DNA of 35,442 nucleotides. It comes from a virus. The stretch is from IMG/VR virus record IMGVR_UViG_3300008266_000220, positions 1 through 35,442 of that record. One strand, given 5' to 3'. Below are positions 269 to 30,928 of this stretch, in pieces. Position 1 is the stretch's first letter. Every line of letters begins with the position of its first letter. A program made the translations under genes and the position numbers. Under the pieces are notes generated by a model. That model had not been told where the DNA came from. It searched no databases and saw only the letters and a list, made by a program, of their open reading frames with translations.

Positions 269-1113
269 TGTCAGCGATGTTAAACCAATCTCAAACCTAC
301 TTGGGTCAATCTTGGATAGGCACCAATGATTACGATAAAGGCCAATGTGTAGGGCTTTATAACAAAGTTGTTTTAGATGTTACCGGGCTTCTTTATCCTC
401 TACAAGGGGCACAAGGTGCGAAGGATTTAATTACCTGCAAGAACACTCGGCCTGACTTATTCCAGCAGATTAAGAACAATCCTAATGACCCTAACCAACT
501 TCCACAAATAGGTGACTGGATAGTCTGGGGTTCAACATGGGGTGGCGGCTATGGGCATGTAGCCTGTGCCAAAACAGTTAGCAAGTCTAGCTTTACTTCT
601 ATTGAACAAAACTATGTCCCAAATAAAGTAACTGAACAGTGGCACGATTGGAACGGTGTTATTGGATGGGTTAGATACACTCCTCCAGCACCCGCACCAG
701 TAGATCCATGTGCTGATGTTAAGGCTCAACTAAACGCAGCTAACCAGCAGATAAGCACGCTTAATGGTCAATTAACTGCACTCACCAATGAAAACAACAG
801 CTTGAAGCTACAACTTACACAAAAGCAAACCGAACTAGACGCAGCAATAGCACAAGTAACTACGCTCTCTAACGCAAATACAGCCCTTTCTGAGCAGGTT
901 TTAAGCCAAGAAGCTACAATCAACCAACTCAACAACGAAATCGCTAATAAGCAGGTAGAAATAGCTCAGTTAAATTCTCAAATAGAAGCACTCAATGCCG
1001 AGATTGAGAAGCTAAAAAAAGAATTAGAACACTGTGGCATGAACATAACAATTAACTTGAATTTTATCGGGATAGTGTTATGGTGGTTAATAGGAAAAGT
1101 GGGTAAGAAATGA
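268..1113 (+). CDS. CHAP-domain endolysin with coiled coil and C-terminal hydrophobic tail
   Basis: This 281-residue protein is a likely cell-wall hydrolase (peptidoglycan amidase or endopeptidase). The N-terminal 140 residues look like a CHAP domain: nucleophile Cys in GQCVGLYN (C27), His in GYGHVA (H97), and the polar residue in IEQNY (E113/N115). A proline-rich linker (about 137-146) leads into a long coiled coil (about 145-255) of N/Q/E/L repeats, then a hydrophobic segment (about 258-276) ending in lysines. There is no N-terminal signal peptide. Most lysins end in a wall-binding domain, so a coiled coil with a membrane-like tail is unusual. It starts on the ATG that overlaps the stop of the holin-like gene and ends in ATGA with the next small gene. 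Confidence 0.82.
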   Translation: MSAMLNQSQTYLGQSWIGTNDYDKGQCVGLYNKVVLDVTGLLYPLQGAQGAKDLITCKNTRPDLFQQIKNNPNDPNQLPQIGDWIVWGSTWGGGYGHVACAKTVSKSSFTSIEQNYVPNKVTEQWHDWNGVIGWVRYTPPAPAPVDPCADVKAQLNAANQQISTLNGQLTALTNENNSLKLQLTQKQTELDAAIAQVTTLSNANTALSEQVLSQEATINQLNNEIANKQVEIAQLNSQIEALNAEIEKLKKELEHCGMNITINLNFIGIVLWWLIGKVGKK

Positions 1114-1265
1114 AAGCTATCTGGGACAAAAAACGACCAAAGTCATTAGGCAAACCTAAGAAGCTAACTTCTGCTAAGAAAGCCAAAGCAAAGGCTATGG
1201 CTAAGAAAGCTGGCAGACCCTACCCTAATCTTGTAGACAACATGAGAGCAGCTAGGAAGAAGTAA
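1110..1265 (+). CDS. Tiny lysine-rich basic protein (51 aa)
   Basis: A 51-residue product, MKAIWDKKRP to MRAARKK, very rich in Lys, Ala and Arg, with the phrase AGRPYPNLVDNMRAA near the C terminus. It starts on the ATGA that overlaps the endolysin stop and ends on TAATG with the next gene, so it sits in a chain of coupled genes and is very unlikely to be a chance frame. The charge suggests nucleic-acid binding, but no family function is known to me. Confidence 0.75.
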   Translation: MKAIWDKKRPKSLGKPKKLTSAKKAKAKAMAKKAGRPYPNLVDNMRAARKK

Positions 1266-1414
1266 TGGCTAAGTCTTCTAAACACTATCTACCAAACGGC
1301 AAGTTATACACTGGTGCAACACACAAAATGGGTGGCAAGATACATTCAGGAGCTACTCACACAGCATCAAGCAAGGTATTAACTCACACTAAACCAAAGG
1401 CTAAGAAGAAATGA
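1265..1414 (+). CDS. Tiny basic Gly/His/Lys-rich protein (49 aa)
   Basis: A 49-residue product beginning MAKSSKHYLPNGKLYTGATH, with GATH repeated (GATHKMGGKIHSGATHTASS) and a lysine-rich end. Start and stop overlap both neighbours (TAATG before, ATGA after). It resembles short basic proteins found near lysis genes of other phages, but I cannot assign a function. The repeated GATH with regularly placed His could suit metal or nucleic-acid binding; this is speculation. Confidence 0.72.
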   Translation: MAKSSKHYLPNGKLYTGATHKMGGKIHSGATHTASSKVLTHTKPKAKKK

Positions 1415-1680
1415 TTCAGCGTGGCAAAGAAAAATTCACAGGTTATAATAAGCCTAAAAGGACTCCAAGCCACCCTACTAAATCACATGCTGTACTTGCA
1501 AAGAGTGGAGACCAAGTGAAGCTAATCAGGTTCGGTCAGCAAGGCGTGAAAGGAGCCGGTGCTAACCCCAAGACAGCAACACAAAAAGCTCGCCAAAAGT
1601 CGTTCAAAGCACGACACGCACAAAATATATCAAAGGGTAAAATGAGTGCCGCTTATTGGGCAGATAAGGTTAAATGGTGA
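1411..1680 (+). CDS. Conserved small basic phage protein (89 aa)
   Basis: An 89-residue basic protein with a recognisable conserved core: KSHAVLAKSGDQVKLIRFGQQGVKGAG, then a K/A/R-rich stretch and the ending SAAYWADKVKW. Proteins with this core recur in many tailed phages as uncharacterised products. The first half may form a small beta structure and the second half a basic helix. It is coupled by ATGA to the gene before and by a GTG overlap to the gene after. Function unknown; nucleic-acid or virion association is a guess from charge. Confidence 0.75.
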   Translation: MIQRGKEKFTGYNKPKRTPSHPTKSHAVLAKSGDQVKLIRFGQQGVKGAGANPKTATQKARQKSFKARHAQNISKGKMSAAYWADKVKW

Positions 1681-5410: not shown

Positions 5411-5504
5411 TGGCAACGGTGCCAGGCTAACCCGTACTTGAGCCTAGAATCGTTACGGGCAAAGACCACCCTAGAATAGTTAGTGCTAGTTTGGGTGGTT
5501 TTTT
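5411..5504 (+). ncRNA. Candidate phage small RNA with H-type pseudoknot and intrinsic terminator
   Basis: About 94 nt form a complete unit. Hairpin 1 is TGGCA/TGCCA (5411-5415 with 5420-5424) closed by the loop ACGG. GGCT (5425-5428) can pair with AGCC (5441-5444), while CCCGTA (5431-5436) pairs with TACGGG (5454-5459); the two stems interleave as an H-type pseudoknot. A terminator stem with a T run follows. A promoter-like pair is correctly placed upstream and no reading frame covers the unit. I do not recognise a known riboswitch or small-RNA family. It could act on host or phage mRNA or bind a protein. Confidence 0.5.
5465..5504 (+). terminator. Intrinsic terminator
   Basis: ACCACCC (5465-5471) pairs with GGGTGGT (5493-5499), with an inner CTAG/CTAG extension, and is followed at once by a run of six T. 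It ends the small RNA and the operon that runs up to 5401. Confidence 0.85.
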
Positions 5505-5869
5505 GTTGACCATGTTTAATAGACCTGATTTTTTGCTACCCCCTAGGGTACAGGCTACCTTACATATTGCACTCTGAAAGCAGTTTATATTCATGCATTC
5601 AGAGCAGCTAAAGTGAGGTTGCCTAAATCTATCTCAAAGCTATTACCCTATTGATCTACAAATAAGTTACCCTCTCTTATTTGTTAATGTACACAGAATG
5701 TCTGCAATACAGAGGTCGTATAACCGCCATACGACTAGCGTTGTACCCTTGTGGCTGTCCGACTCCGACAGTGTGTATCATCTTGTTTTTGCCTCTTGCA
5801 AGGTTAATGAGTCCGATGATGGCTGGGTTCGCCTGCCTAGACTCTGGGGAACTACATCCCTGTATCTAA
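5505..5869 (+). other. Non-coding, hairpin-rich region
   Basis: No convincing gene on either strand; the short open frames here lack ribosome-binding sites and recognisable products. Several perfect or near-perfect stems are present: CTCTGAA/TTCAGAG (5572-5578 with 5598-5604), ACAAATAAG/CTTATTTGT (5658-5666 with 5676-5684, nine bp), GTCGTAT/ATACGAC (5715-5721 with 5729-5735) and CTGTC/GACAG (5755-5759 with 5767-5771). The triplet-rich string TACCCT/TACCCC recurs several times. This fits a large folded RNA, a replication origin with secondary structure, or both. Confidence 0.5.
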
Positions 5870-5935
5870 AGTATTTGTATTCTTGGATATAATACGAATA
5901 CTTAATTGGTATGATATAATGTACTTGGATATAAT
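5870..5935 (+). promoter_or_regulatory. Three -10 boxes with an inverted-repeat operator
   Basis: TATAAT occurs at 5888-5893, 5915-5920 (preceded by TGA, an extended -10) and 5930-5935. The string CTTGGATATAATAC is present twice, 42 bp apart. An inverted repeat, AGTATTTGTATT (5870-5881) against AATACGAATACT (5891-5902) with one mismatch, encloses the first -10 box, as expected for a repressor or activator site over a promoter. The downstream product would be the structured RNA at 5942-6090. Confidence 0.6.
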
Positions 5936-5941
5936 ACAACC

Positions 5942-6090
5942 CTAAAACGAAAGTCATGGGTCAGCCACCGGAAACGGTGGTTCTATAATTAAAAACTTCC
6001 ACGCTGGGTAGCTTAGAAACTACGGGTGGAAGCTAGATCTTGGTAAGCCTGACTGGCCGATATCTATACAGTGCCGGCGTTCAGGCTCAC
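5942..6090 (+). ncRNA. Candidate structured non-coding RNA (three hairpins)
   Basis: It begins about 7 nt after the last -10 box. Hairpin A: AGCCACCG/CGGTGGTT (5963-5970 with 5975-5982, one G-T pair) closed by a GAAA tetraloop. Hairpin B: CTTCCAC/GTGGAAG (5996-6002 with 6026-6032) with an inner GTAG/CTAC stem. Hairpin C: AGCCTGA/TCAGGCT (6046-6052 with 6081-6087), continued by CTGGC/GCCGG after a 3-nt bulge. No open frame of useful size or ribosome-binding site runs through it. No poly-T terminator follows, so the 3' end is unsure. I cannot place it in a known RNA family. Confidence 0.5.
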
Positions 6091-6104
6091 TATCTATTAT
6101 AACC

Positions 6105-6180
6105 TGTGGATAACTTTATAAGAACATATATTGACATAATACTGCTTATGCTGTATACTGTTACCATTGTTAGAAAGGAC
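6105..6180 (+). promoter_or_regulatory. Early promoter with upstream DnaA box
   Basis: A perfect DnaA box TGTGGATAA (6105-6113) in an AT-rich stretch, then consensus TTGACA (6131-6136), a 17-nt spacer and TATACT (6154-6159), then AGAAAGGAC (6172-6180). The same order and nearly the same distances recur at 8465-8541. It drives the early operon that begins with the gene at 6340. The DnaA box may let host DnaA control early transcription, or mark an origin. Confidence 0.75.
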
Positions 6181-6339
6181 GCTGACAATACATTAACAAG
6201 TTGCGGTACGCCATGAGGGCACTGAACGTAAAAGTCGAGTCTGTGCGAGACTTACTTGACTGGCGATGAAACTTCGCTCCCCGACAGGGCAGAACGTGAA
6301 CAGGCTCTCACGATGTACCACAACAATAGAAAGGACACT
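6166..6339 (+). other. Long 5' leader of the early operon
   Basis: The predicted transcript start near 6166 lies about 170 nt before the first gene. The leader contains one unused-looking AGAAAGGAC string (6172-6180), an 18-codon frame (ATG 6213) without a good ribosome-binding site, and short stems such as AAGTC/GACTT and GCGA/TCGC. It may be a regulatory leader, but I see no known riboswitch. Confidence 0.4.
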
Positions 6340-6678
6340 ATGACACTAACTACTAACTCACTACCAGCAGAGATAGAACGCAAGTTACTTGCTACTATTG
6401 AGCTACAAAAGCAATTAGAACAATACGAAACCGAGCTCAAAGCCGAGCTATTAGAAGCTATGGAACAGCACGATATCGTGTCGATCAAGAACGATAACTT
6501 TACCATCAGCCTAGTAGAACGAACAAACTACAAAGGAAACGTTAATGAAGTCCCTACTGATATGTTAAAGACTTCACTAGACACAACTAAGGTTGGTAAC
6601 TATGTAAAGCTTTATGGCGAACTGCCAAAAGGCGTAGAGCAAAGCAAAACTAAATATGTAAGTTGGAGGGCCAAGTAA
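6340..6678 (+). CDS. Gp157-like coiled-coil early protein
   Basis: The 112-residue product is set to the ATG directly behind AGAAAGGACACT; a 28-residue upstream extension to a TTG lacks a ribosome-binding site. Residues 8-50 form a charged coiled coil (LLATIELQKQLEQYETELKA and on), followed by a small beta-rich half (SIKNDNFTISLVERTNYKG). Coiled coil plus short beta half just upstream of an annealing protein and exonuclease resembles siphovirus Gp157-type proteins, of unclear function but usually linked to recombination or replication modules. Family match is from layout and memory only. Confidence 0.6.
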   Translation: MTLTTNSLPAEIERKLLATIELQKQLEQYETELKAELLEAMEQHDIVSIKNDNFTISLVERTNYKGNVNEVPTDMLKTSLDTTKVGNYVKLYGELPKGVEQSKTKYVSWRAK

Positions 6679-6848
6679 TGGACTTTTTCTTAGTAGTATT
6701 TATTATCTTATTTATGATTTATATTAGCGACAAGAAAGAAGTTGACGATTCAATCAGACAAGCAGCTATTAACAAAGCTGTGCAGTTTGTCGAGTTCCAA
6801 GAAGAAATTAACCAAGCTAAGAAACAAGCTAGAAAGAAGTACAAGTAA
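6678..6848 (+). CDS. Small membrane-anchored protein (56 aa)
   Basis: A 56-residue protein with a hydrophobic N-terminal segment (residues about 2-17, MDFFLVVFIILFMIYI) followed by a charged helical tail ending in lysines, so it is probably anchored by its N terminus with the tail in the cytoplasm. GGAGGG 14 nt upstream and the overlap with the previous stop (TAATG) support the start. Function unknown. Confidence 0.65.
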   Translation: MDFFLVVFIILFMIYISDKKEVDDSIRQAAINKAVQFVEFQEEINQAKKQARKKYK

Positions 6849-6943
6849 TGATTCGAGCATTCTATTTTTGGAGATGTAAACGACTTAATAATCGGTTACA
6901 GTATTATCAACTAAGACTACAACAGACAAGGAAGCCAAGATAA
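6848..6943 (+). CDS. Tiny arginine/glutamine-rich peptide (31 aa)
   Basis: A 31-codon frame joined to both neighbours by TAATG overlaps. The product MIRAFYFWRCKRLNNRLQYY, ending QQTRKPR, is basic and aromatic. The double coupling is the main argument that it is translated; it may serve only to carry ribosomes to the next gene. No function can be given. Confidence 0.45.
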   Translation: MIRAFYFWRCKRLNNRLQYYQLRLQQTRKPR

Positions 6944-7428
6944 TGGAAATAGTAAAACTCAGTACACTTAAAGACATTCAAGTATTCTCAGCAGAGGTTA
7001 AGAAGTTCATACACGACAATAGGCTCTGGACTAACGTTCAAGGTAGACCCTACGTAAACGTAGAGGGCTGGCAGTTTATGGGTGGCATGCTTGGGATTAC
7101 AGCCAACGTCAAAGAATTAGAGAACCAGAGCGACGACAATCAACTGAAATACCGAGCAGTCGTAGAACTGTATCGTGGCGATCAACTAGTAAGTTCTGGG
7201 GTAGCCATCTGCTCAAACAAAGAAAAGGGCAAACAATACTTCGATGAGTATGCAATCGCTTCAATGTGTCAGACAAGAGCCATAGGTAAAGCCTATCGTA
7301 TATACTTAGGCTGGATTATGAAAATGGCAGGATTCGAATCTACACCATTAGAAGAAATGCAGGAGGGTTACCATGCAAGCGAAGAACAAAAAGAAGAAAT
7401 CATCAAAGCACACAGTCAGAATTCATGA
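6943..7428 (+). CDS. Candidate single-strand annealing protein
   Basis: A 161-residue protein with a conserved-looking centre: YVNVEGWQFMGGMLGI, an AICSNKE stretch, then ASMCQTRAIGKAYRIYLGWI. A motif of the type A-x2-x2-TRAIG-KAYR is typical of phage proteins encoded just before YqaJ-type exonucleases, and resembles the DNA-binding helix of Rad52/Erf-like annealing proteins. The next gene is a YqaJ exonuclease, so the pair probably forms a RecT/RecE-like recombination system acting on DNA ends. The family assignment is inferred from context and motif. It overlaps the exonuclease gene by 56 nt. Confidence 0.55.
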   Translation: MEIVKLSTLKDIQVFSAEVKKFIHDNRLWTNVQGRPYVNVEGWQFMGGMLGITANVKELENQSDDNQLKYRAVVELYRGDQLVSSGVAICSNKEKGKQYFDEYAIASMCQTRAIGKAYRIYLGWIMKMAGFESTPLEEMQEGYHASEEQKEEIIKAHSQNS

Positions 7429-7951
7429 GACTGCTCAGGGCTCGCCTGAATGGTTCGATTTACGCAAAGGGCGTGTCACAGCGTCTAATGCGTGGAAAAT
7501 GCTTGAAAGGGGCTATAAATACGCCACAGAGCAAAAGCCAATAGCTACTACCAGTGCCATGCAGCGTGGTAAAGACTTAGAGCCCGAAGCTTTGGAACTT
7601 TACTCTAAAATCAAGAACGACCTAGAAATACTTAGTGTCGGGTTTGTTACTAATTCAAAATACCCTAATGCCGGGGCCAGCCCAGATGGTGTTCTTCCTG
7701 ATAAGCTATTGGAAGTTAAATGCTTTGGCCGAGACAAACATCTTGGGATCACAGAAGACAGTATCCCACCAGAAGTTATGGCCCAAGTGCAAATGCAGAT
7801 GATGATATGCGAGCTACCAGAATGCGATTTAGTTCTTTACAATCCACAGTGTGATCCAGCAGACGCTCTTAGGATAATAACTATCCCAGCTGATCCACTT
7901 ATCCACAAGAACCTAGCCAAACATTTGCAAGACGGTCTTGACATAGCATAA
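7373..7951 (+). CDS. YqaJ-type viral recombinase exonuclease
   Basis: A 192-residue protein with the motifs of the lambda exonuclease/YqaJ fold (PD-(D/E)xK): RKGRVTAS (31-38), GKDLEPEA (66-73), GASPDG (101-106, catalytic D105), LEVKC (113-117, E114 and K116) and QVQMQM (138-143). Such enzymes chew the 5' strand at double-strand ends and hand the 3' tail to an annealing protein. Size and motif spacing are normal, so it should be active. The ATG is preceded by AGGAGGG. Partner: the candidate annealing protein just upstream. Confidence 0.9.
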   Translation: MQAKNKKKKSSKHTVRIHETAQGSPEWFDLRKGRVTASNAWKMLERGYKYATEQKPIATTSAMQRGKDLEPEALELYSKIKNDLEILSVGFVTNSKYPNAGASPDGVLPDKLLEVKCFGRDKHLGITEDSIPPEVMAQVQMQMMICELPECDLVLYNPQCDPADALRIITIPADPLIHKNLAKHLQDGLDIA

Positions 7952-7989
7952 GCAACATGCTAGTATGTAATTACTCTAAAAGAAAGGAC
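7899..7989 (+). promoter_or_regulatory. Early promoter with upstream DnaA box (inverted)
   Basis: TTATCCACA (7899-7907, a perfect DnaA box in the opposite orientation to the other two), TTGACA (7938-7943), a 17-nt spacer ending TGC, TAGTAT (7961-7966, extended -10), then AGAAAGGAC (7981-7989) and ATG at 7993. The box and the -35 lie within the end of the exonuclease gene. Confidence 0.65.
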
Positions 7990-7992
7990 ACC

Positions 7993-8253
7993 ATGAGTAA
8001 AAAACTAAGTATGGACTTGCTAGACCCAAAAGAAATCGGGACAGCAAAGCGAACAATACCAAACAACAGAAGCCATCGCTTCTCTAACTGGGCAGATGAT
8101 CACTTACTGCCTTGGTTATCGCTTGCAGCACTTGCGTTCCTAGCAGCAGTCGGAATCATATCTATCACTCCAATGTTGGTAGACGACTTCCGGACAGCAT
8201 TTGCTTTCATTGTAGTTTTCTTCCTTGTCATCAAGGTTAGAACTATACAATAG
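7993..8253 (+). CDS. Small two-span membrane protein (86 aa)
   Basis: An 86-residue protein: a hydrophilic N-terminal 35 residues, then two membrane spans (about 39-59 and 68-82) and a short basic end. The ATG follows AGAAAGGACACC, the ribosome-binding string shared by early genes, and has its own promoter at 7938-7966, so it is a single-gene early unit ended by the terminator at 8286-8310. A superinfection-exclusion or host-membrane role would fit this kind of solitary early membrane protein but is unproven. Confidence 0.65.
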   Translation: MSKKLSMDLLDPKEIGTAKRTIPNNRSHRFSNWADDHLLPWLSLAALAFLAAVGIISITPMLVDDFRTAFAFIVVFFLVIKVRTIQ

Positions 8254-8278
8254 CAGTTGAGATTGGGTAAAACGAGGT

Positions 8279-8310
8279 AAAAAAAGAGCCCCCTAGATGG
8301 GGGTTCTTTG
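8279..8310. terminator. Strong hairpin terminator, possibly two-way
   Basis: GAGCCCCC (8286-8293) pairs with GGGGGTTC (8299-8306, one G-T pair) around the loop TAGAT. On the plus strand it is followed by TTCTTTG, and on the minus strand by a run of seven T, so it could stop transcription in either direction. It ends the unit containing the membrane protein at 7993-8253. Confidence 0.75.
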
Positions 8311-8464
8311 TGTGTGGAGAGGTTTTGTTGTGTGGTGTTTGTGTTTACCACTACTGGTGGGGGTTTAGTGGTGTTCTCATTATACATAAAAAGCAGCCCC
8401 AAAATAAAGAGTTTAGAAAGGACACTATACCACGGGGCTGCGATTGAGACATTATACCTTAAAC
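8302..8464 (+). other. Non-coding G/T-skewed tract and GC-stem hairpin
   Basis: I see no supportable gene here. From about 8302 to 8380 the plus strand is almost all G and T, with stem ACCACTA/TAGTGGT (8347-8353 with 8366-8372). GCAGCCCC (8393-8400) then pairs perfectly with GGGGCTGC (8434-8441) around a 33-nt loop. The loop carries TAGAAAGGACACTAT, the same 15 bases that form the ribosome-binding site before the gene at 6340. Confidence 0.55.
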
Positions 8465-8541
8465 TGTGGATAAATCAACCAAATCACTATTGCTAATACA
8501 ATGCTTATGATGTATGATACTTGTGTCAATAAAGAAAGGAC
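8465..8541 (+). promoter_or_regulatory. Early promoter with upstream DnaA box, copy of the 6105-6180 module
   Basis: Perfect DnaA box TGTGGATAA (8465-8473), TTGCTA (8490-8495), a 17-nt spacer containing GCTTATGATG, TATGAT (8513-8518), then AGAAAGGAC (8533-8541) and ATG at 8547. Box-to-minus-10 distance is 48 bp here and 49 bp in the 6105-6180 copy. Confidence 0.65.
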
Positions 8542-8546
8542 AACAA

Positions 8547-8798
8547 ATGAGAATACAAGTGCAAGATAGGGGGAGCTTCTTTGAGTTTCCTATAACAGTG
8601 CAGGGTGGCTATTGGGACGACGGTAGCTTCGAGATGGAATGGTGCAACCATGCCGGTGCATACCAAACCAACAGCGATTTTTGGTACGCCAAAGATAACG
8701 GTGGCTACGAAGAAGTCACAGAGAAATATTACATCTGCGATAAGTGCGACGAGACTTGGGAAATGGATAACGATGATTATGAAAAGGAGGATTTTTAA
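8547..8798 (+). CDS. Small acidic zinc-ribbon-like protein (83 aa)
   Basis: An 83-residue, strongly acidic protein started at the ATG behind AGAAAGGACAAC. It contains WCNHAGA and later ICDKCDETW; the spacing of C/H and CxxC suits a small zinc ribbon, followed by a highly acidic tail (MDNDDYEKEDF). A strong promoter makes it a likely abundant early protein, perhaps a host-interaction factor or DNA mimic given the charge. No family recognised. Confidence 0.65.
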   Translation: MRIQVQDRGSFFEFPITVQGGYWDDGSFEMEWCNHAGAYQTNSDFWYAKDNGGYEEVTEKYYICDKCDETWEMDNDDYEKEDF

Positions 8799-9023: not shown

Positions 9024-9180
9024 GGGATTGACGATTGCAGTTGTACTTTTAGCTGGCATATTCATAGCTAGAGAACTAATAGAAACCTACAACACAATTC
9101 AAATTAGAAAACAGATAGCTAATCTTCAACAAGAACTAGACGAATTGATAAACGTATTAACTAAAAAAGGCAAGAAATGA
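9016..9180 (+). CDS. Small membrane protein with coiled-coil tail (54 aa)
   Basis: A 54-residue protein, MVEGLTIAVVLLAGIFIARE first, giving one N-terminal membrane span (about 4-20) and a coiled-coil tail with leucine heptads (IANLQQELDELINVL) ending in lysines. It overlaps the previous gene by 8 nt and the whiB gene by ATGA. Unknown function; its layout resembles the small protein at 6678-6848. Confidence 0.6.
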   Translation: MVEGLTIAVVLLAGIFIARELIETYNTIQIRKQIANLQQELDELINVLTKKGKK

Positions 9181-28086: not shown

Positions 28087-28221
28087 ATGCCATTAAAAAA
28101 AGGTTACGGGAAGAAAACAGTATCAGCTAACATTCGCAAAGAAATGAAAGCTGGCAAGCCACAAAAGCAGGCTATTGCGATAGCACTTAGCTCTGCACGC
28201 AAGTATAAGAAAAAGAAATAG
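28087..28221 (+). CDS. Small basic phage protein, DUF6496-like (44 aa)
   Basis: A 44-residue protein, MPLKKGYGKKTVSANIRKEM, then AGKPQKQAIAIALSSARKYKKKK. This phrase, small basic with KAGKPQKQA-IA-AL-ARK, is common in phage proteins of the DUF6496 kind, of unknown role. A strong ribosome-binding site (AAGGAG) and a private promoter support expression. Too short for routine gene calling. DNA or RNA binding is likely from the charge. Its stop runs straight into the next promoter. Confidence 0.8.
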   Translation: MPLKKGYGKKTVSANIRKEMKAGKPQKQAIAIALSSARKYKKKK

Positions 28222-28942: not shown

Positions 28943-30928
28943 ATGCCTTGGGCTAAAAGAGTAACAAAGCGAATACCCGGACAAACTTCGCCAAAACAAA
29001 CCGTTGAGATTAACGATTACTCTGGTGGGTTTAACTCATTTACTGGTAATGATAGCTTCCCACTTAAAAGCGGTGGCTCTAATATGTGGCGTGTGGCTAA
29101 GAACGCTCGTATAACTACCCTCGGGGAGTATGGAACTCGCAGGGGCGTAGACTTTCACAGTGCAGCAGCAGGCGAAACTCAAGACCAAGCTCAGACATCT
29201 ACAACAGGTGCATCTACCGTTAACTTTAATTATACAAACAGGGTAGCTCAAAAGTTTACAGCTGGTGCCACAGGCCGTCTTACAAAGATAGACTTGAATA
29301 TTAAAAACGATTTGTCAGGAACAGGTGCAGTTATATGTGAGATTTGGACAGATAGTGCAAGCAACCCTGGGACAAAACTTGCTACTTCTTCTATTGCAGC
29401 ATCAGTCCCGACAGGGTCTTTGGCGTACCAAACTTTTTATTATAACGAAGCCCCATCAGTTACCAGCGGTGCATCTTATTGGCTGGTAATTTATGCACAG
29501 GCAAACGCTACTGGAAACTATACTTTATCCACAACTACTAACACTACGCTTGCCAAAACATCAGTGGACATTGGTACATCATGGTCGGCACAGACTTACT
29601 CAATTAACTTCAAACAATACTACGCAACCAGCCAACCAGTTAAAGGGCTTTTCAGGGCATATAAGACCGATGGGACAAAAGTTACGCTATTTGTGGCTGG
29701 GACAGTGCTCTATTCAGTAAACAACTCCACAGGGGCTCTTACAAGCGTTAAAACAGGTCTCAACGCCAGTGCTACCGACTACCGATTCGCTCTGGTAAAC
29801 GATATTGTCTATTATGTGAATGGCTATGATGGCTACCGTAAGTGGGACTTTAGCTCAGAGTCTCAAGTATCTGCAACTAACTACACTACAATAGCCGAGC
29901 ATAAAGGCTTAATGTTCTTGGGCGACAAGACTGACCCCAACAAAGTAGTGTTTTCTAACTTTGCAGCCTATGAAACGTTTACAGCAACTGATTTTATCTA
30001 CGTTCCAGCACCTAAAACTGGTGACCCAGTTACAGCCCTAGTTTCATTAAACGGTTATCTGTTCGTTTACACCCTAAATAACAAGTACATACTAGCCGGA
30101 GATGACCGAGACAGCTTCTCACTAGGCGAAGCACCAGACCAAAGAGGTACTTTTACTCAAGAAACTGTTACAAAAGACAAGAACTTTATGTATTACCTAT
30201 CTAATGACGGTGTTTACCGCTCAAATGGTTCCGAAGCTCAGCTACTCAGCGAGAATGTATACCAAGAAATCTTTGACTTAAACGACAAACCAGAATGCAC
30301 AATTCAAGTCAATGGTGGTCGACTCTATCTTTGGTACCAGACTAGTGGTTCTTCTGTTAATGACGAGTGCCTAGTGTGGAATCTTAACTACTCAACTCGC
30401 TCAGACACTGTGGAAAGCCGAGACACGCAGAGTTACGGTTCACGAGCCTTTGCTGCCTATGACGACAATAACGCTCTCTTGGTGGGTTCTAGCCTTGTAG
30501 GACAGGTTTACTGGCAAGAACTCCCAACTAACGATTACACAAACGCTGGTGGCCTTATAGAGTTTGAACTCTCTACACCATACATGCCGTTTGCAAGTCC
30601 ATCAGTTCTAAAAGAAATACGATATTGGAACCCAAGATTCGGTGCACAGTCAGATTCATACACTATTGCTTGCGAATATGCCTACGATTTACGAGATAAC
30701 TGGGAGCTTTACCAAGCACAGAACGTGCAAGGTGAGGGCTTTACTTACGCTGGTGGCTCGACATTTGGATCAACAGCTACTTATGGCACAACTTCTGAAT
30801 TACAGGCTTATCTCACAGTACCGGGAGAATACAGACGAATTGCTTTGAGATACAAGCACTACGCTACTAGACAGCCACATACTTTCTTGGGGCATACACT
30901 TGTAGTACAAACACGCAGGATTAGGTAG
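28943..30928 (+). CDS. Tail nozzle / tail tube B-like protein with inserted carbohydrate-binding-like domain
   Basis: A 661-residue protein. From residue 215 on there are repeated WD-like blades (GLFRAYKTDGTKVTLFVAGT, ALVNDIVYYVNGYDGYRKWD, GLMFLGDKTDPNKVVFSNF, ALVSLNGYLFVYTLNNKYIL) as in the beta-propeller nozzle of podoviruses (P22 gp10, T7 gp12). Between residues about 85 and 215 lies an extra domain (VAQKFTAGATGRLTKIDLNI, then SYWLVIYAQANATGN) resembling a jelly-roll choice-of-anchor type. AAGGAGG precedes the ATG. Confidence 0.78.
   Translation: MPWAKRVTKRIPGQTSPKQTVEINDYSGGFNSFTGNDSFPLKSGGSNMWRVAKNARITTLGEYGTRRGVDFHSAAAGETQDQAQTSTTGASTVNFNYTNRVAQKFTAGATGRLTKIDLNIKNDLSGTGAVICEIWTDSASNPGTKLATSSIAASVPTGSLAYQTFYYNEAPSVTSGASYWLVIYAQANATGNYTLSTTTNTTLAKTSVDIGTSWSAQTYSINFKQYYATSQPVKGLFRAYKTDGTKVTLFVAGTVLYSVNNSTGALTSVKTGLNASATDYRFALVNDIVYYVNGYDGYRKWDFSSESQVSATNYTTIAEHKGLMFLGDKTDPNKVVFSNFAAYETFTATDFIYVPAPKTGDPVTALVSLNGYLFVYTLNNKYILAGDDRDSFSLGEAPDQRGTFTQETVTKDKNFMYYLSNDGVYRSNGSEAQLLSENVYQEIFDLNDKPECTIQVNGGRLYLWYQTSGSSVNDECLVWNLNYSTRSDTVESRDTQSYGSRAFAAYDDNNALLVGSSLVGQVYWQELPTNDYTNAGGLIEFELSTPYMPFASPSVLKEIRYWNPRFGAQSDSYTIACEYAYDLRDNWELYQAQNVQGEGFTYAGGSTFGSTATYGTTSELQAYLTVPGEYRRIALRYKHYATRQPHTFLGHTLVVQTRRIR

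Follow-up and report, generated by a model that had tools for sequence, protein, structure and literature searches.

Why should a small phage carry, upstream of its promoters, perfect copies of the box recognised by the bacterial replication initiator DnaA? The DNA that raises this question (the window, meaning the whole stretch of 35,442 bases analysed) is a virus record with a direct terminal repeat of 114 bp, and we therefore regard it as a complete genome. Its WhiB gene, at 9177, suggests that the host is an actinobacterium, as far as gene content can tell. The recognised genes concern lysis, recombination (YqaJ, NinG, endonuclease VII), methylation (methylases), packaging and structure. 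A scan that did not set every small gene against every library brought up no initiator, helicase, primase or polymerase. The annotated phage collection contains no close relative at the DNA level, and a scan of genome_contigs with the protein of the 6943 gene returned Bacteroidota only and did not find the host. Comparison was possible with G001 (35,148 bases) and G002 (35,618 bases), two further species of the same phage genus, which are circular permutations with ~75-80% DNA identity over the matching parts. All comparisons between species are thus of three phages that share ancestry; G003, whose promoter-3 unit is the same as that of G002, was left out as an independent species.

The original prediction had placed TGTGGATAA at 6105 and 8465 and its reverse complement, TTATCCACA, at 7899, and these coordinates are exact, as are the distances of 49, 62 and 48 bp from box start to -10 start (promoters 1 to 3). 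Each of these perfect TTATCCACA boxes, at 6105(-), 7899(+) and 8465(-), lies upstream of a sigma70-type promoter (Table 1). A count over the whole genome confirmed the three promoter boxes and added a fourth perfect copy at 29525, inside late coding sequence, which is common to G001 through protein conservation; both G001 and G002 have two boxes in addition to their three promoter boxes. The predicted figure of ~0.3 chance copies was borne out by shuffling, which gave 0.33 expected copies per window, and none of 100 shuffles reached four. In related viral loci outside the genus (1.35 Mb, some loci overlapping), 37 copies were seen against 11.1 expected under a Markov model, an excess of ~3x, and about one incidental box per genome is therefore normal.

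Table 1. Location in the window of the promoters, boxes, genes and RNA elements discussed in the text.
Feature	Position	Strand	Basis
DnaA box, promoter 1 (TTATCCACA on the - strand)	6105..6113	-	exact 9-mer; kept in G001 and G002 in opposite orientation
Promoter 1: TTGACA-17-TATACT (-10 at 6154), GCTTATG in spacer	6131..6159	+	11/12 consensus match; conserved
AGAAAGGAC at 5' end of promoter-1 transcript, without good start codon; second small RNA pairing site (11-14 nt)	6172..6180	+	
AGAAAGGAC, ribosome-binding site of gene 6340-6678; best small RNA target (TAGAAAGGACACTAT, 15 nt)	6328..6336	+	
Gene weakly resembling Mu Gam-like / Sipho_Gp157 families	6340..6678	+	below Pfam cut-off
Gene, function guessed as recombination from neighbours	6943..7428	+	weak matches to unknown-function PHROGs only; Pfam none
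YqaJ-like exonuclease gene; 3' end contains promoter-2 box and -35	7373..7951	+	PF09588
DnaA box, promoter 2, within end of YqaJ gene	7899..7907	+	exact in 3/3 species
Promoter 2: TTGACA-17-TAGTAT (-10 at 7961), CATAAGC in spacer	7938..7966	+	pattern and conservation
AGAAAGGAC, ribosome-binding site of gene 7993-8253	7981..7989	+	
Terminator-like hairpin closing promoter-2 unit	8290..8303	+	sequence
Predicted antisense small RNA: stem GCAGCCCC/GGGGCTGC, 33-nt loop with GTCCTTTCT, U-run; ~58 nt	8387..8444	-	
Small RNA promoter: TTGATT-16-TATAAT, DnaA box within spacer	8451..8478	-	conserved
DnaA box common to promoter 3 (upstream) and small RNA promoter (spacer)	8465..8473	-	exact 9-mer; conserved
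Promoter 3: TTGCTA-17-TATGAT (-10 at 8513), GCTTATG in spacer	8490..8518	+	pattern and conservation
AGAAAGGAC, ribosome-binding site of gene 8547-8798	8533..8541	+	

The same three promoters are found in G001 and G002, each again with a perfect TTATCCACA. An unbiased k-mer count over the 60 bases before the -35 in the three species returned TTATCCACA as the sole 9-mer present in all nine upstream regions, and TTATCCACAG (10 nt, the box and the G after it) in eight of them. At promoter 3 the box centre lies 21 nt before the -35 in all three species, and at promoter 1 it lies 22-24 nt before, even though the window's flanks cannot be aligned with those of the relatives and its box has the opposite orientation. 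The distances at promoter 2 are 35 nt in the window, 34 nt in G002 and 23 nt in G001, that is, 11-12 nt or about one helical turn apart. If transcription is assumed to start ~36 nt after the first base of the -35, the box centre comes to about -58 at promoters 1 and 3 and about -70 at promoter 2. As at DnaA-regulated promoters, then, a perfect box stands near the promoter and is conserved with it in relatives. The claim that the promoter boxes look selected is strongly supported, the 9-mer being kept unchanged at 9/9 promoters amid changes of orientation and distance.

Relatives with the promoters and no box were also sought. A boxless pattern scan of 2.9 million viral contigs found this genus only, always with the box; the locus L064, whose 6943 gene is 76% identical, was considered as such a case and proved uninformative, having neither boxes nor promoters. 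Scanning viral_contigs for the box together with the spacer motif gave 51 stretches; nearly all of those outside the genus look like chance matches in other settings. In the more distant phage G005 (L156:1501) a DnaA box was seen within a terminator-like hairpin, in its loop, with a promoter-like site downstream; it was not counted. The spacer word itself, GCTTATG (window 6144, 7947 and 8503), occurs in 9/9 promoters of the three species, with variable orientation at promoter 2, and may be the site of a further regulator. Promoter 3 may read on into late genes, so that the label 'early' given to all three promoters is unproven.

That the boxes arose by chance and were kept by common descent only is extremely unlikely. 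The threefold base rate in related viral DNA and the position of the promoter-2 box in coding sequence, where it is partly explained by the encoded Ile-His, could be taken to favour chance, but this would leave the promoter-1 box, flipped between unalignable flanks, and the presence of a box at every one of the nine promoters to be accounted for. A rough estimate puts the combined probability well under 1e-8 even when one incidental box per genome is allowed, and three boxes in a zone of ~26 nt before three promoters remain far beyond chance despite the raised base rate. Chance was accordingly discarded on the shuffles and the k-mer count after the base rate had been raised.

Selection could nonetheless have acted through something other than promoter control by DnaA. 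A sponge, in which the boxes on many phage copies titrate DnaA and halt host replication while their position at promoters is secondary, would suit the three conserved consensus boxes per genome in three species, yet decoys need no fixed promoter distance and all nine boxes lie 21-35 nt before a -35, which makes this very unlikely. A non-DnaA protein, of host or phage, might instead recognise TTATCCACAG upstream of the promoters: the conserved motif extends to 10 nt in 8/9 cases, the GCTTATG motif points to additional regulators and the phage encodes a WhiB-like factor. Against this, the 9-mer matches the canonical DnaA box at every base and WhiB-like proteins are not known to bind it, and we consider such a protein decidedly improbable.

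The second element of the original prediction, that each promoter is followed by the same leader, fared differently. AGAAAGGAC does start 18, 20 and 20 bases after the start of the -10, and the three promoter-linked copies are as described, but the window contains five (6172, 6328, 7981, 8415 and 8533), and we rejected a special leader as the main reading. At 6328, 7981 and 8533 the motif is mainly a Shine-Dalgarno sequence, that is, a ribosome-binding site, since AGAAAGGA pairs with the tail of the 16S rRNA. The 8415 copy corresponds, read on the opposite strand, to the hairpin loop of a putative leftward small RNA gene. The interpretation as a whole was partly supported: it stood as regards boxes selected at promoters and largely not as regards the leader; the layout of three promoters and boxes is sound, and what had been missed is a predicted antisense RNA whose promoter contains the third box.

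The small RNA is read from a conserved arrangement. Its promoter in G001 (TTGTGA-17-TATAAT) and G002 (TTGTAA-17-TATAAT) has the layout seen in the window, and the box in the spacer is conserved in three species. The stem core is invariant across the three species, and TGTCCTTTCT is kept in loops that otherwise differ. Folding against shuffled sequences gave z -5.2 for the window stretch and -3.5 and -3.7 for the relatives, and no match was found in Rfam. The RNA gene aside, exact loop complements of at least 11 nt in the whole window and in the ~12.5-kb loci of G001 and G002 occur only at three ribosome-binding sites and at the promoter-1 leader. The best target in the window is gene 6340 (15 nt, -28.0 kcal/mol, against -20.6 for the next gene and a median of -12); G002 has the same gene, the 6340 counterpart, as best target through a different 16-nt match (AGAAAGGACAATCCAA), and in G001, which has another gene behind promoter 1, without an exact AGAAAGGAC, the best target is the promoter-3 gene (14 nt).

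The loop flanks change in step with these targets between species, and they pair better than shuffled flanks around the core (P 0.003, 0.004 and 0.0004-0.0008 in the three species). When the RNAs were exchanged between species, pairing became weaker at 8/11 sites; at the promoter-3 site of the window, its own RNA pairs no better than those of the other species. A promoter, a structured RNA and an intrinsic terminator, as in trans-acting antisense small RNAs, are all found here, and so is a conserved and co-varying target complementarity (8/11 sites best with their own RNA). The phage appears to make a small RNA that is predicted to pair with the start signal common to the genes downstream of its promoters.

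Other RNA-like elements surround this locus. A pseudoknot-like RNA at 5424-5507, built from AGGCT/AGCCT and CCCGTA/TACGGG and with a terminator behind it, is conserved; its second helix has three double-sided changes in three species, and it has no Rfam match. A possible second leftward RNA (6089-5985, - strand) would start at the promoter-1 box (TATAAT at 6101-6096) and shows two strong hairpins, a U-run and a fold z of -5.2; in the relatives the box is flipped and a matching TATAAT was not seen by eye. In G002 the promoter-2 unit is separated from the small RNA by extra DNA (L062 ~7290-8170), parts of which resemble window 1105-1678 and 28087-28220; this spot therefore takes up cassettes.

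How might the boxes act? Because the 8465 box falls within the spacer of the small RNA promoter and ~58 nt ahead of the point where promoter 3 would start transcription, any protein occupying it should block the former promoter and could activate the latter; with the other two boxes considered as well, the arrangement suggests that DnaA activates all three promoters and represses the RNA. The three boxes would be binding sites of host DnaA, serving as upstream, class-I-like activator sites for the three sigma70-type promoters, and DnaA on the 8465 box would also block the RNA made from the divergent promoter. Through its loop this RNA would pair with the AGAAAGGAC ribosome-binding sites of the first genes downstream of the promoters, with gene 6340 as its foremost target. 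With ample DnaA, transcription would be strong and the ribosome-binding sites free; with DnaA scarce, for example when titrated by many phage genome copies, transcription would fall, the RNA would rise and the genes would be closed. Box, promoter and RNA anatomy, conservation and species-matched complementarity are visible in the DNA; DnaA binding, activation, RNA repression and titration are what we infer.

Coupling of phage transcription to host DnaA, as originally proposed, is a fair reading of these sequences. The likeliest account, to which we give about an even chance, is that the three promoters are activated by host DnaA acting from about -58 or -70, and that it also silences the small RNA. 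Variable box orientation is unusual for class I activation and counts against an activator, and control by DnaA usually takes several boxes, which speaks against activation from a single one. More tentative, and in our judgement somewhat doubtful, is the full two-layer switch, in which one host protein would activate three promoters and, from the promoter-3 box, silence an anti-Shine-Dalgarno RNA, so that the phage would read the replication state of its host and, through titration, its own copy number in both transcription and translation.

The main rival to this transcriptional reading is a role in replication, with the boxes recruiting host DnaA, and hence the replicative helicase, to a phage origin in this region and the promoters providing transcriptional activation or RNA primers. 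A complete genome in which no initiator, helicase, primase or polymerase is recognised would need host machinery; in G001 an O-like initiator gene with four iteron-like GGTGCAAAAA repeats (three of the four GGTGCAAAAAGTGCAC) ends directly before the promoter-1 box, as in lambda, and the window has a noncoding region of ~0.6 kb just left of that box. Yet the boxes keep their distances to the promoters across a span of 2.4 kb, the box remains at its promoter in species that have exchanged the initiator module, and the boxes are single, unlike the clusters of oriC. The fixed spacing and the swap favour transcription over an origin, which we regard as unlikely. An initiator with internal repeats, as in lambda-type origins, was found in G001 only; neither the window nor the searched part of G002 has one.

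The G001 gene (L063:4340-4810) belongs to a replication module that appears to have been exchanged between relatives. The noncoding stretch of the window (5510-6105), a possible origin, is partly conserved with G002 (5866-6002) and has a 132-base match to a fecal phage record.

The nearest precedents by analogy are lambda, with DnaA at pR/pO and the OOP RNA, and the c4 RNA of P1. Lambda shows DnaA-stimulated transcriptional activation of its origin, with DnaA boxes near pO footprinted (PMC3985674). What is reported for lambda, DnaA acting on phage transcription near the origin, is proposed here; both have a leftward antisense RNA, here a predicted one, from a promoter with DnaA boxes nearby, and in one relative, G001, there is an O-like initiator gene containing internal repeats. 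Unlike lambda, the window has one perfect box before each of three promoters in class-I-like positions, a box inside the small RNA promoter, an RNA predicted to pair with ribosome-binding sites in trans and no O-like gene, and the two were not found to have any sequence in common. Both OOP and c4 are antisense RNAs of phages, the latter acting at a ribosome-binding site (PMC12197685); the predicted RNA resembles c4 of P1/P7 in an antisense loop that pairs around a phage ribosome-binding site (PMC12197685), and differs in being unrelated in sequence, a single hairpin, predicted to have at most four target sites and linked to a DnaA box.

As a transcription factor, DnaA acts at dnaA, uvrB and other cellular promoters, with boxes near sigma70-type promoters (PMC6015884); unlike the promoters described there, the present ones are three promoters of one phage whose boxes lie nearly the same distance away. 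A whiB gene and, probably, low-GC actinobacterial hosts are what the window has in common with phages of 'Ca. Nanopelagicales' (PMC10202952); it has no DNA-level relatives in the annotated phage collection. Within the open papers searched, we found neither DnaA boxes in early promoters of actinobacterial phages nor any description of one box per promoter combined with an anti-ribosome-binding-site RNA under one of the boxes.

If the proposed control is real, a small phage without recognised replication genes would use the replication initiator of its host as a master transcription signal, and DnaA could move the infection from one stage to the next in response to copy number. Both the switching-on and the translation of phage genes may then be timed by a single cell-cycle protein of the bacterium, through a compact pairing of DnaA site and antisense RNA in phages of uncultured actinobacteria, whose gene control has been little studied.
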